Source: Alphaproteobacteria bacterium (lineage in GTDB: Bacteria; Pseudomonadota; Alphaproteobacteria; UBA9219). Taken from it: a DNA stretch of 41,438 nt. Below the pieces are notes generated by a model, which saw only the letters and a program-made list of their open reading frames with translations, did not search any database and was not told where the DNA came from. A program made the position numbers and the translations under genes. Below are positions 35,963 to 41,438 of the stretch, in pieces. The stretch is taken from positions 1 to 41,438 of the forward strand of contig JARLJD010000034.1 of the NCBI GenBank assembly GCA_031291395.1, given 5' to 3'. Numbering within the stretch: the first letter of the stretch is position 1; every line of letters begins with the position of its first letter.

Positions 35963-36886
35963 CTACAACCCCAACCGCGTCTTCACCCTCCCCCACAACA
36001 CCTTTGGGGAAAAGGTCAACCGCATGCCGTCGACCAAACACATATCTCCCCACGCCACCAGCGTATGGACGCCGTCGGGATATGTGGTCGAGCTGGGGAC
36101 GATGCGCGTAACCTCGCGCTCCCTGTATTCCATCGGGGTGCAAACGAGGATTTCCATCATGCGCAACGCGCCGCCGTCCCTTTCTTCGCAGTCCTGCGCC
36201 GGACGGTAAAGCCTTTTGCCAACTTTGAACACCGCGCCGCCGTTTCGGCTTTTCTCGCGCCCGCTTTGCACGGGATTGGCGCGATGCGCCGTCCACGGCC
36301 CTGACAAGCGCGAGGCGTAGACGAGATTCAGATTGTCATCACAGCCGCTTTCCAAATCGGTATAGGCGATCCAGAACAACCCGTCTTCCTCGAACAGAAC
36401 GGCGTTCGCCACCGGCTTGCTCTTGAAAACGACGGCATGCGCCGCCCACGCGCCGTCATGCTCCTGCCAGCGGAAAATTTCCAGCCGCCCGCAAGCCGAG
36501 GATTCCGGCATGATGTAAACGATCCCGTCGCGCATGAACAAAAAGGGAAAGGAAAGCCGCCCGGGCAACGGGAAATCCAGATTCATTTCGACGGCAATGC
36601 CGTTGGCATCAAGCTTGATCGCGGCCAACATCCCCTTCTGCGCCGCAAGATCGTAATTTTCGCACATCAGCGTGTCATAATTGCCCGGCCAAGGGAAAGG
36701 ACAAGACAGATAACGCTTCTTGTCGAAAGGCGCGATCCAACGAACGGGCGGCATCTCGGCCCAGTGCAAAGCGTTGGCGATCGGCTGTTCGACAAGGCCG
36801 ATCATCCAATGTTCGTAAAACAAAACGCTCCGCGTCAAGCGACGCGCGCGGCGAAGCAACAAGCGAACGGTGGAAAAAGCTGACAT
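35963..36886 (-). CDS. Beta-propeller protein related to glucosamine inositolphosphorylceramide transferase family
   Basis: This 307-residue protein has a basic N-terminus and then a five-bladed propeller pattern: SFPFLFMRDGIVYIMPESSACGRLEIFRW, VFKSKPVANAVLFEEDGLFWIAYTD, LVYASRLSGPWTAHRANPV and the strongly conserved-looking KVGKRLYRPAQDCEERDGGALRMMEI. This resembles the domain found in plant GIPC transferases and in bacterial sugar or formyl transferases fused to them. A role in surface sugar or LPS modification is inference, helped by nearby waaA-lpxK. AGGA lies 8 bases before the ATG. Confidence 0.75.
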   Translation of the reverse strand: MSAFSTVRLLLRRARRLTRSVLFYEHWMIGLVEQPIANALHWAEMPPVRWIAPFDKKRYLSCPFPWPGNYDTLMCENYDLAAQKGMLAAIKLDANGIAVEMNLDFPLPGRLSFPFLFMRDGIVYIMPESSACGRLEIFRWQEHDGAWAAHAVVFKSKPVANAVLFEEDGLFWIAYTDLESGCDDNLNLVYASRLSGPWTAHRANPVQSGREKSRNGGAVFKVGKRLYRPAQDCEERDGGALRMMEILVCTPMEYREREVTRIVPSSTTYPDGVHTLVAWGDMCLVDGMRLTFSPKVLWGRVKTRLGL

Positions 36887-37295
36887 CGCAAAATCCTAAA
36901 CAAAGGCGGACAGTCACCTTTCCATTTAGCACAAAAAGGCCAGAGGGAGGATTGTTTTGTGACCGTCTATATACAGGGTGCCTGACGTGCGCGAGGCAGG
37001 ATTGCCTAAAACATCCCCAATAGGGCTGTTGTTCTGTTTCTTCCATCGTTTTCTGTACAGCCAGAAAATCTGCCGTCTGCGGTTTCAGCGTGCGCTGTAC
37101 CATCCCGTGCAGGAAATACGCCCCCGGCTTATAGGTGCGTCAGAAGGGCGTGATTTTACCGCAGCGCCTTGCCGGAATTAAGGATTGGGTAATCTTTCCG
37201 AGAGTAATATGCGGGGATTAAGTGGGGGGCTTTATGTGAAAACGCTCCCCCGCTTCCATTGCGAAAGCGGCTACAAATCAAACGGAGATTGGTTC
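36887..37295. other. Intergenic stretch with a possible gene remnant
   Basis: No intact gene is seen in these 409 bases. On the minus strand from about 37141 to 36970 a frame encodes a coding-like peptide (KPGAYFLHGMVQRTLKPQ then ADFLAVQKTMEETEQQ). It follows a stop and has no start codon with a ribosome binding site, so it may be a decayed gene. A CCGCTT / AAGCGG hairpin (37250-37270) lies just before the next gene and may be part of its leader. Confidence 0.4.
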
Positions 37296-37994
37296 ATGCA
37301 GAAAAAATGCAACCTCACGATTTTCGCTCTGATTTTTTTGTCGTTTTTTGCAGTTTTCGCGATGCAGCAGGCGCAAGCGCAGCTGGTGGATAGCCCGCCT
37401 TTGGTGCAGACCCTCCAACCCGGAATTCCAGTGACGCCCTCGTCGCCGGGCAATCCGCCCGATTCAACATTGGTTCCGCAAGAAACGGTGACATTGGAGA
37501 GCAGCGTGAATGACCCTCATTGCCCAAGCGGGAATGCAGCGGACTCTATCTATTACAACAACTCAGCAGGGCATCTGCAGCGGGCTATGAATGTGATTCA
37601 AAATATTAATAATGCGAATCCCGTTCAGGCGGCTATGACCACATGTGTGTTGAACGTTATGAAGGTTATACAATCGCTGACTACCATGGTTGATAATCAA
37701 AACTTATTTGGAACGATAGCCGACGCGATCCTTTCTTCAATTATCGTATCCCTCATCAATCAAGTTTGCTCACAGGTAACGAGTTTAATCAATCAGGCAA
37801 AAACCGCTTTAATAAATCTGACCAAGATCTGTATACCCTTACCGCATTTCAGCCTCCCGCATTTTTCGTTAACCACGCCCTCTTGCACAGGCGGCATAGT
37901 ATTTAGCCCGCTTCAGTGGACGCCAAACCCACCGCTCGTGCCGATGAGCAATGCCAACCAATATATTGGGACGGGACAAACAAAAGGAAACTAG
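37296..37994 (+). CDS. Exported cysteine-containing hypothetical protein
   Basis: This 232-residue protein has a strong signal peptide (CNLTIFALIFLSFFAVFAMQ, cut after AQAQ). The mature part has a Pro-rich linker (residues about 30-65), a helical region with LQRAMNVIQNINNANPVQAAMTTCVLNVMKVI, a hydrophobic segment (AILSSIIVSLINQVCSQVTSLINQ) and a Pro-rich tail with two near-repeats (PHFSL). There are five mature Cys. No family is recognised. The ATG at 37296 has GGAG 7 bases upstream; an upstream in-frame extension to 37185 lacks a signal. The next exported protein starts 45 bases later. Confidence 0.7.
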   Translation: MQKKCNLTIFALIFLSFFAVFAMQQAQAQLVDSPPLVQTLQPGIPVTPSSPGNPPDSTLVPQETVTLESSVNDPHCPSGNAADSIYYNNSAGHLQRAMNVIQNINNANPVQAAMTTCVLNVMKVIQSLTTMVDNQNLFGTIADAILSSIIVSLINQVCSQVTSLINQAKTALINLTKICIPLPHFSLPHFSLTTPSCTGGIVFSPLQWTPNPPLVPMSNANQYIGTGQTKGN

Positions 37995-38039
37995 AGGGAA
38001 GCGGTTATGAACAATAGAAGCCAAGGAGGAATTTTCAAA

Positions 38040-39356
38040 ATGCGGCTGTCCCATGTTATCTCTTGCTTTGTTCTGGCGGTCATGTTGTCCGCTCCTGTGC
38101 AGTCGGCTCGTGCCGATGCTTGTGTTATCGTTGGCGGGAATGGCACCGTTCAAGAAACGGCCACAGCGGTATCTTCAGCCGTTACAGCGACGGAAACAAC
38201 ATTGATGTACGCGTGGGATCAATTATCGAGCGCCCTTCATACAGCGCTTACCAGCGCGATAGCCTATATCCATGAAATGATTTCGACGATGCTTGCGGAT
38301 ACTATGAATGCCAACACCAGATTATCCAGCAACTTGAAAACATATCAGGAAAAGGCGGTAAAGAATTTAGACGTTACGGGTTTCAGCGCGTGCGGTCTTG
38401 AAAATAGTTCGCTCTCATCGGCCAATGAAAAACAAACGGTCAACCAACAGGCGGCTGCCTTTGCCCGAGCAGGGGGAAATCGCCCCAACGATTCGTCGAC
38501 GATCGCAAAAGATCTTCAGGCCCGATGCAAGCAAGGCTTTATCGACACATCGTCAGGATCGAAAGATCCTGAAAACGCGATGTACATACGTTTGTTTGGG
38601 TCGAAATGCCCGAGTCCCGCTATCCCTAGCTATGTGGGGGCGGATCGCAACATCGCGAGTCTGCTGGATCCCTTGGAATACTCTGTCCCCACAAATCTTC
38701 CGGTTCAGCTTGCCGATGGCGTATATCAGCCGCTTCCCGCGACGTTAACGGGGTGCACTAGTAACGACGGAAGTACTGATTGCTCCGCTTTTGCCGCGGC
38801 TTATGACTTTTGTCAGAACGTCACGCCGGCAAGTCCTCCCGCGCAGCAGGGGTCGGGGCAAGCGACAACCGCCGACCTGATTGCCGGTGCGCGCAGGAAT
38901 AAAATGGCGGGGCTGAGCACTGCCACAGATGCCTGCTACAAGGCACTTTCAAGGCGCCTGCAGTATCCTTCTGGCTCTAATGTGCCGGCCAAAGATGCGA
39001 TGGGCACAAGTATGAGCAGACATGATCAACAAGTTGCTCGCTGCCAGGATGACCTCCTGAATTTCATTATTACTAATGCTCAATCAGACGCATGCAAGCA
39101 GTTTGGTCGCAGCGACTTACAGGCGGATCACGACAGGGCATACCGGCTTGGAAACCAAAACTATGTTAACTCGGTCATTTCCGGTTTAAGTTTGGAAGGG
39201 AAAGAGAATATGAAGGCCCTCGCATGGAAAGCGGAGCAAGATCTTCAGCTGGATCTTAGGGAAGAAAAGATGGGCGTAATCACGGCGATCGGCGTCGCAA
39301 ACGGCATATCCGTGCCGTCAGCCTCGCCCTTGGATCGGGCAATATCTCCCCAATAG
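38040..39356 (+). CDS. Exported cysteine-rich hypothetical protein
   Basis: This 438-residue protein has a signal peptide (VISCFVLAVMLSAPVQSARA) and ten mature Cys. An N-terminal helical, Thr/Ser/Ala-rich region (about 30-90) is followed by Cys-spaced segments (SACGLE, ARCKQG, SKCPSP, TGCTSN, TDCSAF, DFCQNV, DACYKA, ARCQDD, DACKQF) and a helical end. The pattern recalls periplasmic components of conjugation or type IV secretion machines, but no motif proves it. The ATG at 38040 has AAGGAGGA 9 bases upstream; the ATG at 38007 also has a ribosome binding site. It is co-directional with the gene at 37296. Confidence 0.7.
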   Translation: MRLSHVISCFVLAVMLSAPVQSARADACVIVGGNGTVQETATAVSSAVTATETTLMYAWDQLSSALHTALTSAIAYIHEMISTMLADTMNANTRLSSNLKTYQEKAVKNLDVTGFSACGLENSSLSSANEKQTVNQQAAAFARAGGNRPNDSSTIAKDLQARCKQGFIDTSSGSKDPENAMYIRLFGSKCPSPAIPSYVGADRNIASLLDPLEYSVPTNLPVQLADGVYQPLPATLTGCTSNDGSTDCSAFAAAYDFCQNVTPASPPAQQGSGQATTADLIAGARRNKMAGLSTATDACYKALSRRLQYPSGSNVPAKDAMGTSMSRHDQQVARCQDDLLNFIITNAQSDACKQFGRSDLQADHDRAYRLGNQNYVNSVISGLSLEGKENMKALAWKAEQDLQLDLREEKMGVITAIGVANGISVPSASPLDRAISPQ

Positions 39357-39384
39357 ACGGCGTGGGTTAAGGCCTTGCGCCCGC

Positions 39385-40161
39385 CTACTTATAAACGCAT
39401 TGCGACGTTCCGCTGCCGTCATAGGTGATGGTCAGGCTCGTGACTTGCTGGTTCGGAACGGGGCAAGTAATTTGCTCCAAGGGGATGTCGTAGCGGTTGT
39501 TCATTTCAGTCAGAACGCCGCTGTCGAGCGGCAACTTGTTGTCAACAGTACACCAAGCCTGCGCCGCCATCTGATAATTTTTTATCATTCCGTCATAGTG
39601 AACCTTGATTTTCGGCGAAGTGCCGCCCTCGAGGATGTAGGCCCCCTTATCCGTCTGCATAAGCCCGCGCATGGCCAAGATGCAAGAAGACGCCACGCGG
39701 CTGCGGCGAAGCCCAAGCCTGCTGGTAATTTTCTGCACATCGTTTGCGCCGAATATCGATTTCCCGCTCATTGATAGCGTCAGGGTATAGGGCAGGTCTT
39801 TTCCTGCCTTTTCCTGATAACTCGATATGTCGGGCGTATGCATAACCGTCGTTGGAATGGCTCCGGGCGGAAGGCCTGCCGCCTCTTCCTTACTGATGGT
39901 CGATACGGCGCGAGACGACGACAAAGCAGGGGTCGATGTTTGCGTCGTGTCGGTCTGGTTCGTGTCGGCGGGCGTTTGCGTTGCGGCGGACGTGTCGTTC
40001 GACGTTGTTGCGGGATCGCCGAGTCCAAGGCTGGGAAGCATAGGCGTGCCGCTGTTTGTTGACGTCGAAGGCAACAATACATTGCCTGCGGCATGCGCTG
40101 TTACCGGCGCAATAGTTGCTGTTGCAAAGAGGCCAAGAACGGCAAATACGGAATAACGCAT
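39385..40161 (-). CDS. Exported hypothetical protein with four cysteines
   Basis: This 258-residue protein has a signal peptide (YSVFAVLGLFATATIAPVTA, cut near AHA) and a long Thr/Ser/Pro-rich disordered linker (about residues 30-95) rich in TQT/TST. A folded C-terminal domain follows (PYTLTLSMSGKSIFGANDVQ through to ...SQCVYK) with four Cys in SSCILA, AWCTVD, ITCPVP and SQCVYK. No family is recognised. It lies between, and is oriented opposite to, the two exported proteins upstream and the Dsb-like gene, so it is divergent from the latter across 194 bases that hold both promoters. Confidence 0.7.
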   Translation of the reverse strand: MRYSVFAVLGLFATATIAPVTAHAAGNVLLPSTSTNSGTPMLPSLGLGDPATTSNDTSAATQTPADTNQTDTTQTSTPALSSSRAVSTISKEEAAGLPPGAIPTTVMHTPDISSYQEKAGKDLPYTLTLSMSGKSIFGANDVQKITSRLGLRRSRVASSCILAMRGLMQTDKGAYILEGGTSPKIKVHYDGMIKNYQMAAQAWCTVDNKLPLDSGVLTEMNNRYDIPLEQITCPVPNQQVTSLTITYDGSGTSQCVYK

Positions 40162-40355
40162 GAACTTTTTCACCCCACGCTGTTTCTCCAAGGTTTGCGG
40201 ATTTCGATTATAATGTAAACAAAAAATTTGTGTCCTTGAGCGCAATTATCCCAAACGGGACGCGCGATGCTATTTGCGTCAACGCCCTTGTCGCTGCGCG
40301 GTTTTTGCGCCATAAAATGGAGAATCGTTATGAACAGGAATAGGATTGCACGCTC

Positions 40356-41246
40356 ATGAAACGTCTTCTGCTCGTTGTTGCTCTGTCAGCCCTGTTTTCC
40401 GGCGCCTCGTTCGCGGCGGCGCCTGCGCAGCCCAATCCTGCCGCCAATCCGACCTTGGCCAGCCTTCAAAAAGCGGGGGCGAAATTTTTCTATCTCGGTT
40501 CCCGCTTCGGTCTAGACGGATGGTTTATCGTTCAGGACGGACGAGTGCAGATGCTTTACGCGACGCCCGATAATAAAGCGGCATTGATCGGCGCCATTTT
40601 CGGCGAGGGCGGCGAGAACATTACGGCGGAACAGGTCAATGCGCTTATGCAGAGCAACAAAGAAGTCGCCAATTTGATCGACGCCGCTCAAAAGGAACAG
40701 GCCAATATCACGCAAGCGGGCAGCGCGGCGGCAACCACGCCCATCGACCCCGGCGCGATTCCCTCCGTAGCCCTGTCGCCGGGGGAAAGGCTGATGCATG
40801 AGCTTGAAGCCGCTTCGACGGTTCTTATCGGTCAGGAATCGACTCCGGAAATCCTTATGGTTATGGATCCGCTGTGTCCCTATTGCCAAGCGACATGGAA
40901 GGCTTTGCACGAGGCGGTTGCCAAAGGGAAAGTGCATCTGCGCCTGATTCCGGCGGCGCGCAAACATGAAAATGAGCGCGCTTCCGCGATCCTTTTGGGA
41001 GTCAGCGATCCCCTGAACGCGTGGGACAAGTATATGGCGGGCGACAAGGCGCAGCTGGCGGGAACGCCTTCCGAGGCGGCTTTGGCGTCGGTGCAAGCGA
41101 ATACGTCGCTGATTGAAAGCTGGAAGATCACCAAGCTCCCCTTCCTCGTCTACCGCGCCCAAGACGGCAAGGTGAAAGTGATTAAGGGCGAACCCAAACC
41201 AAACGGCGTTTCCTCCCTGCTCAGCGATCTTGGCGCGGATAAGTAA
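40356..41246 (+). CDS. Periplasmic DsbC/DsbG-like thiol:disulfide interchange protein
   Basis: This 296-residue protein has a signal peptide (LLLVVALSALFSGASFAAAP), an N-terminal region of about 100 residues in the place of the DsbC dimerisation domain, a linker helix and a thioredoxin-fold domain. The active site is CPYC (Cys174-Cys177, after MVMDPLCPYCQATW), and the cis-Pro loop is ITKLPFLVYR. CPYC is closest to DsbG and type IV secretion-associated DsbC proteins. It would shuffle or reduce disulfides in the periplasm. Its neighbours are exported multi-cysteine proteins, likely clients. AGGA lies upstream of the ATG. Confidence 0.85.
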   Translation: MKRLLLVVALSALFSGASFAAAPAQPNPAANPTLASLQKAGAKFFYLGSRFGLDGWFIVQDGRVQMLYATPDNKAALIGAIFGEGGENITAEQVNALMQSNKEVANLIDAAQKEQANITQAGSAAATTPIDPGAIPSVALSPGERLMHELEAASTVLIGQESTPEILMVMDPLCPYCQATWKALHEAVAKGKVHLRLIPAARKHENERASAILLGVSDPLNAWDKYMAGDKAQLAGTPSEAALASVQANTSLIESWKITKLPFLVYRAQDGKVKVIKGEPKPNGVSSLLSDLGADK

Positions 41247-41264
41247 GGGCTCGTCTACAAATAA

Positions 41265-41316
41265 GTGAATCAACCCAATGTCGTCATCCCCGCGAAGGCG
41301 GGGAGGTGGATTCACG
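41265..41316. repeat. Nested hairpin after the Dsb-like gene
   Basis: An outer inverted repeat (GTGAATCAACC at 41265-41275 and GGTGGATTCAC at 41306-41316, one mismatch) contains an inner perfect hairpin CCCCGC-GAAG-GCGGGG (41289-41304). It could stop transcription from the Dsb-like gene and may include the right end of the IS. The inner core matches the hairpin at 7053-7082. Confidence 0.5.
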
Positions 41317-41438
41317 ATTGAAGTGCAACGGAGGAGGAAATAGTACTTCAGCTGGGGTTTTGAATCCAAGGCATTTTCTGGGTGCGTTGTTATGCCGGTC
41401 GGCGATGAGTTGGAGAGCGTGATGAGAAAGGGCAGAAA
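41313..41438 (-). mobile_element. 3' end of an IS30-type transposase gene, frameshifted, runs off the window
   Basis: Reading leftwards from the window edge gives LQLIADRHNNAPRKCLGFKT followed by PAEVL, the conserved C-terminal pattern of IS30-family transposases. In a second frame the sequence then continues as SSVALQS and stops at 41313-41315, the normal IS30 ending. A one- or two-base frameshift after the PAEVL codons therefore separates the two parts. In the first frame the stop comes later, at 41285. The catalytic domain lies outside the window. The copy is probably inactive. Confidence 0.7.

Follow-up and report, generated by a model that had tools for sequence, protein, structure and literature searches.

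Which system could bring together several exported, cysteine-rich proteins of no recognised family and a periplasmic thioredoxin-fold protein? This question is raised by four genes, here called g1 to g4, that lie between positions 37296 and 41246 of a DNA stretch of 41,438 nucleotides (the window), which is contig C139 of G000, the draft genome of an alphaproteobacterium (2.41 Mb, 99% complete, 3.9% contamination). A preliminary description of the window proposed that the four genes form one envelope or secretion-related system with its own DsbC-like factor. Our analysis indicates that g1, g2 and g4 are quite probably one module, now detached, of a type IVB secretion system encoded on the chromosome, of the Dot/Icm kind and related to IncI. 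Thus, the proposal holds for these three genes, which are joined by synteny, but not for g3.

The Dot/Icm-type locus of related genomes

The order-wide counts come from profile searches in 33 draft genomes of the order, which were not selected for Dot genes and were searched irrespective of gene neighbourhood. The complete arrangement can be seen in G003 and G006, where the gene order is g1, g2, c10 (a 277-amino acid gene of no family), a transglycosylase gene, g4, a 95-amino acid gene, DotD (PF16816, E 1.8e-28), DotC (PF16932, E 3.4e-73), DotB, TcpQ/PilL, PilN (secretin) and PilO. The same block was found again in many named metagenome-assembled genomes (MAGs), and another group of loci, of more Micavibrio-like character, carries, in this order, a g4-like gene, c10, the transglycosylase, DotD, DotC and DotB. 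In G025 prepilin-like genes follow the Dot cluster; some 20 kb upstream of it are DotI-type genes, DotH, DotG, a DotF-like and a TraQ-like gene, a putative DotO, DotM (NF033890, E 1.9e-57) and a TrbC/DotL-like gene. The DotO candidate matches VirB4-type proteins weakly. IncI-type thin-pilus genes stand beside the type IVB locus in many genomes of the order. Judged from these gene contents, the locus of the relatives is a chromosomal type IVB (Dot/Icm, IncI-like) system. With DotB, DotC and DotD as neighbours, the likeness to F-type conjugation loci put forward at the outset was abandoned.

DotH was found in 29 of the 33 genomes, g4 in 26, g2 in 24 and g1 in 23. Of the 19 genomes with both g1 and g2, 18 have the two genes adjacent; among the 20 with both g2 and g4, these two are no more than about 3 kb apart in 16. 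The exceptions are G015, G022, G005 and G009; in the last, g2 and g4 are both at contig ends, and an assembly break is therefore likely. Since g1, g2 and g4 occur together in many relatives, as the preliminary description had expected of a common system, its counter-scenario of homologues scattered away from the Dsb-like gene is not borne out for g1 and g2. Neither DotC nor DotH was found in any of the 26 other Alphaproteobacteria genomes searched, a sample that does not exclude such systems elsewhere in the class; plasmid-borne type IVB-like systems exist in other Alphaproteobacteria. Two candidates were discarded during these searches: an apparent 55-residue g4 relic in G007, which is only a contig end, and a frame of 24,500 codons in G029, which is masked sequence.

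The g2 protein resembles IcmX and TraW

The gene g2 (38007-39356, plus strand) begins 12 bp after g1 and codes for an exported protein with ten mature cysteines. Its true start is more likely the in-frame ATG at 38040, which follows an AAGGAGG sequence by 10 nt and immediately precedes the signal peptide. Comparisons of g2 with Pfam and NCBIfam gave chance-level matches only, a first scan of named genomes with g2 gave no match, and the protein had initially been described as lacking a recognisable family. It can be linked to TraW by profile and, more tentatively, to IcmX by fold.

The predicted structure of g2 has a mean pLDDT (predicted local distance difference test) of 72.5, with values of about 85-95 over most of residues 130-435. 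The top PDB match of this model in Foldseek is chain AP1 of 9ngy, the Legionella DotA-IcmX protochannel (E 5.5e-3, prob 0.92). This chain is taken as IcmX because the only other named protein, DotA, is chain FP1, of 1048 amino acids. The alignment of g2, an all-helical protein, with 9ngy AP1 reaches Z 8.6 over 222 residues (4.9 Å, 14% identity), the best of 350,542 chains, the next-best chain having Z 5.0. By a different method (hhalign), the g2 profile matches a profile of eight plasmid TraW-type sequences over 185 columns (E 4.5e-7, score 59.3). As controls, 40 column-shuffled alignments scored at most 21.4, one reversed alignment 14.9, and five other alignments at most 34.5. The eight-sequence profile was needed, since one TraW sequence alone gave no match with g2. 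On the basis of its profile and, less firmly, of its predicted fold, g2 can be recognised as a probable IcmX/TraW-like protein.

Relatives carry one to four tandem copies of g2 per locus, several of them two to four. For instance, three to four IcmX-like genes in tandem are found directly 5' of the Dot core genes in L116, L118, L119, L120, L121 and L123.

g4 and its possible substrates

The gene g4 (40356-41246, plus strand) codes for an exported thioredoxin-fold protein with a signal peptide recognised by inspection, the CPYC motif at residues 174-177 that had already been reported, and the conserved proline. Its match to the NCBIfam DsbG model (E 2.7e-29) scores 102.1, which is below the curated equivalog cut-off of 124 bits, and the N-terminal dimerisation domain is matched weakly (PF10411, E 0.061). 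There is also a weak match to the TrbB profile in the thioredoxin domain (110 columns, E 3.5e-5). From its sequence and neighbourhood, g4 is a DsbC/DsbG-like protein, bound to this locus across the order.

The gene g1 (37296-37994, plus strand) codes for an exported protein of 232 amino acids with five mature cysteines. It belongs to no known family, matches to Pfam and NCBIfam being at chance level. No usable model of g1 was obtained, and its fold search was empty. In two relatives a g1-type domain is fused to a lytic transglycosylase (L117:778-2028 and L202:8050-9516; SLT E 2.5e-4 and 3.6e-6, respectively). These fusions suggest that g1 may be an accessory protein at the point where the machine crosses the peptidoglycan.

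The total cysteine contents of g1, g2, g3 and g4 are 6, 11, 4 and 2, respectively; g1 and g2 each have one inside the signal peptide, and the counts of 5, 10 and 4 mature cysteines in three exported proteins are as first described. All five mature cysteines of g1 (C76, C117, C158, C179 and C197) are invariant in 16 homologues, four of g2 (C129, C310, C346 and C363) show conservation of 90% or more across 30 homologues, and those of g3, four in number, do not vary among 11 homologues. In g4, both CxxC cysteines and P262 are invariant in 10 homologues. This conservation means that the cysteines are more than a chance feature of these proteins.

The gene g3 (39385-40161, minus strand, with its ATG at 40161) is reversed between g2 and g4. 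Its comparison with Pfam and NCBIfam gave chance-level matches only. Elsewhere its homologues are mostly beside an ATP-binding cassette (ABC) transporter, hydrolase or DUF192 gene, and none was found with Dot genes in the other genomes where the neighbourhood was read. It adjoins g2 only in G000, at both g1-g2 loci of this genome (the window and contig C12). Hence g3 looks like an unrelated neighbour and not a part of the Dot locus, although g4 could nevertheless act on it as a substrate.

A split locus in the source genome

The preliminary description suggested that the locus might continue past position 41438, where Dot genes could be sought. Instead, the Dot genes of G000 are on other contigs because the locus is split in this genome. 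The main operon is on contig C27 and consists of c10, the transglycosylase gene, a decayed 3' end of g4 (L091 14547-14690), the 95-amino acid gene, DotD (detected by phmmer), DotC (E 5.7e-73) and DotB (TIGR02524, E 4.6e-121, somewhat under the curated cut-off). The closest named relatives of this DotC are uncultured Alphaproteobacteria MAGs, several of them labelled Micavibrio. DotH is on C146 and two tandem DotI-family genes are on C182, and the genome also encodes a DotG-type protein, matched in its C-terminal part (NF033900, E 1.5e-49).

In the window, g4 is preceded by a decayed fragment (40263-40325, plus strand) of the lytic transglycosylase gene that normally precedes it. A 48-bp segment of this relic is 85% identical to the C27 transglycosylase gene (L091:14847-14894, E 1.8e-9), and a match of 21 amino acids to the L046 transglycosylase was obtained by tblastn. 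Thus, the window and C27 bear reciprocal remnants, suggesting duplication and subsequent loss. The g4 of the window is the sole member of its family found in G000.

Contig C12 (L044) carries a second, strongly diverged g1-g2-g3 set, and neither g4 nor Dot genes are near it. The trees built for g1 and g3 did not resolve the origin of the C12 copy or of the g3 copies.

Proposed function and alternative explanations

In the mechanism that we propose, g1 and g2 would be exported by Sec, and their disulfides would be isomerised in the periplasm by g4. The g2 protein would sit in the central channel of the machine (the protochannel), as IcmX does. Close to the peptidoglycan, g1 would act as an exported partner, possibly in a role like that of the C-terminal region of VirB1-type transglycosylases. 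The g3 gene would be an unrelated insertion.

Several observations weigh against this interpretation. The same genome holds a second g1-g2 pair on C12, so the pair in the window may not be the main one. The Foldseek E-value linking g2 to IcmX is modest and the sequence identity low (14%), and in an all-helical protein a Z of 8.6 can reflect a common arrangement of helices in the model. The TraW profile did not retrieve the IcmX chain, which means that the g2-IcmX and g2-TraW links come from different methods; IcmX was likewise not retrieved when PDB sequences were searched with profiles of g2 or TraW. For g1 there is no reliable model (pLDDT 55). Finally, profile searches found no g4 in G001, G004, G008, G017, G029 and G032 despite the presence of DotC or DotH, several of these genomes being incomplete.

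The block in the window could be a redundant or decaying duplicate of Dot-locus genes, the work being done by the g1-g2 pair of C12. The existence of that pair, the insertion sequence (IS) and the transglycosylase relic at the block and its interruption by g3 would fit this idea. However, all open reading frames (ORFs) of the window are intact and retain their key cysteines, and the only g4 found in the genome is here, the former C27 copy having decayed, so we consider such redundancy unlikely. It is somewhat doubtful, but conceivable, that g2 is a secreted or surface protein, either an adhesin or an effector, that merely shares the locus and its DsbC-like factor. Its fast divergence (homologues in the alignment are 11-37% identical to the window protein), its two to four tandem copies and its lack of Pfam or NCBIfam matches could be expected from such a protein, but its independent links to IcmX by fold and to TraW by profile favour a channel component. 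Both ideas overlap, since IcmX itself is described in a review as part of the channel and also partly released (PMC12981334).

The two remaining alternatives are both very improbable in our estimation. One is that the four genes, including g3, constitute a single envelope disulfide system, as the export of g3, its four invariant cysteines and its position beside g2 at both g1-g2 loci of G000 could indicate; in the other genomes whose g3 neighbourhood was read, however, g3 is away from g1, g2, g4 and Dot genes, mostly by an ABC transporter and a hydrolase. The other is that g4 is a general periplasmic DsbC/DsbG, present here by chance. Its sequence is indeed DsbG-like, but most genomes of the order have its orthologue inside the Dot locus. 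The explanation that we prefer is a detached type IVB module composed of g1, g2 and g4.

Contig edge and other features of the window

An IS remnant at the window edge had been noticed previously, and the segment 41259-41438 is indeed repeated, with 97% identity, at the termini of three further contigs (C146, C184 and C16). Within it, the minus strand (41284-41436) encodes a transposase-like C-terminus, LQLIADRHNNAPRKCLGFKTPAEVLF, that runs off the contig end and is assigned to an IS transposase. Just 3' of g4 (41242-41305) there is a short repeat around CCCGCGAAGGCGGGG with many more copies genome-wide, which looks like a dispersed palindromic element. On the other side, 5' of g1, positions 37022-37115 are 83% identical to G000:C183:4542-4635. 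Further upstream (35963-36886), an encoded protein matches GINT1_N (PF24793, E 3.3e-27), a domain that takes its name from a glucosamine inositolphosphorylceramide transferase.

Significance in Micavibrio-like bacteria

Micavibrio is a genus of predatory bacteria. A Dot/Icm-type machine would be near-universal in this uncultured and little-studied Micavibrio-like order, as indicated by the distribution of DotH (29 of 33 genomes, against 0 of 26 others in the class). Relatives whose records are labelled Micavibrio encode DotD, DotC and DotB, as seen in the labelled MAGs, whereas according to the genome paper of M. aeruginosavorus strain ARL-13 there was no evidence for a type IV secretion system (PMC3189940). 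One labelled record, L154 (CP066681.1, Micavibrio aeruginosavorus), has a g4-like gene, DotD, DotC and DotB.

As a speculative extension, Micavibrio-like bacteria might possess a Dot/Icm machine with tandem, divergent, disulfide-bonded IcmX-like subunits, a built-in isomerase and a diversified channel tip. If so, such a tip could perhaps be a mixed oligomer or one of several exchangeable tips for different target cells. These assignments give names to proteins that had no family, predict multi-copy IcmX-like channel proteins with a dedicated isomerase, and make the role of these proteins in contact with other cells testable.

Comparison with known systems

IcmX is pentameric and VirB5-like and forms a channel with DotA, according to a review (PMC12981334). 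Like IcmX in 9ngy, g2 is helical and belongs to a Dot-type system, and its predicted fold seems similar over the aligned 222 residues. However, the two proteins share little sequence, relatives can have as many as four g2 paralogues in tandem, and g2 stands beside DotD-DotC-DotB.

With TraW of IncI/IncM plasmids, a component of the mating pair formation type MPF_I, g2 shares the 185-column profile match, a similar length and a signal peptide. In R64, disruption of traW is detrimental to transfer (PMC6112013). TraW is present as a single copy in the plasmid region read, near TraU and TraY, whereas g2 is chromosomal and multi-copy in relatives.

The CxxC thioredoxin domain and the signal peptide of g4 are shared with DsbG/DsbC, and their N-terminal domain is matched weakly, but its score under the curated DsbG cut-off and its association with one locus across the order are points of difference. 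A dedicated thioredoxin-fold CxxC factor of a type IVB transfer system is already represented by TrbB of IncI/IncM plasmids. Deletion of trbB abolishes transfer of the IncM plasmid pCTX-M3, and in R64 TrbB is required for high transfer efficiency (PMC6112013). TrbB adjoins the coupling protein TrbC and, in pCTX-M3, lacks a signal peptide and is predicted to have a single transmembrane helix (PMC6112013). In contrast, g4 carries a signal peptide, and its place in the locus is between the transglycosylase and DotD genes.
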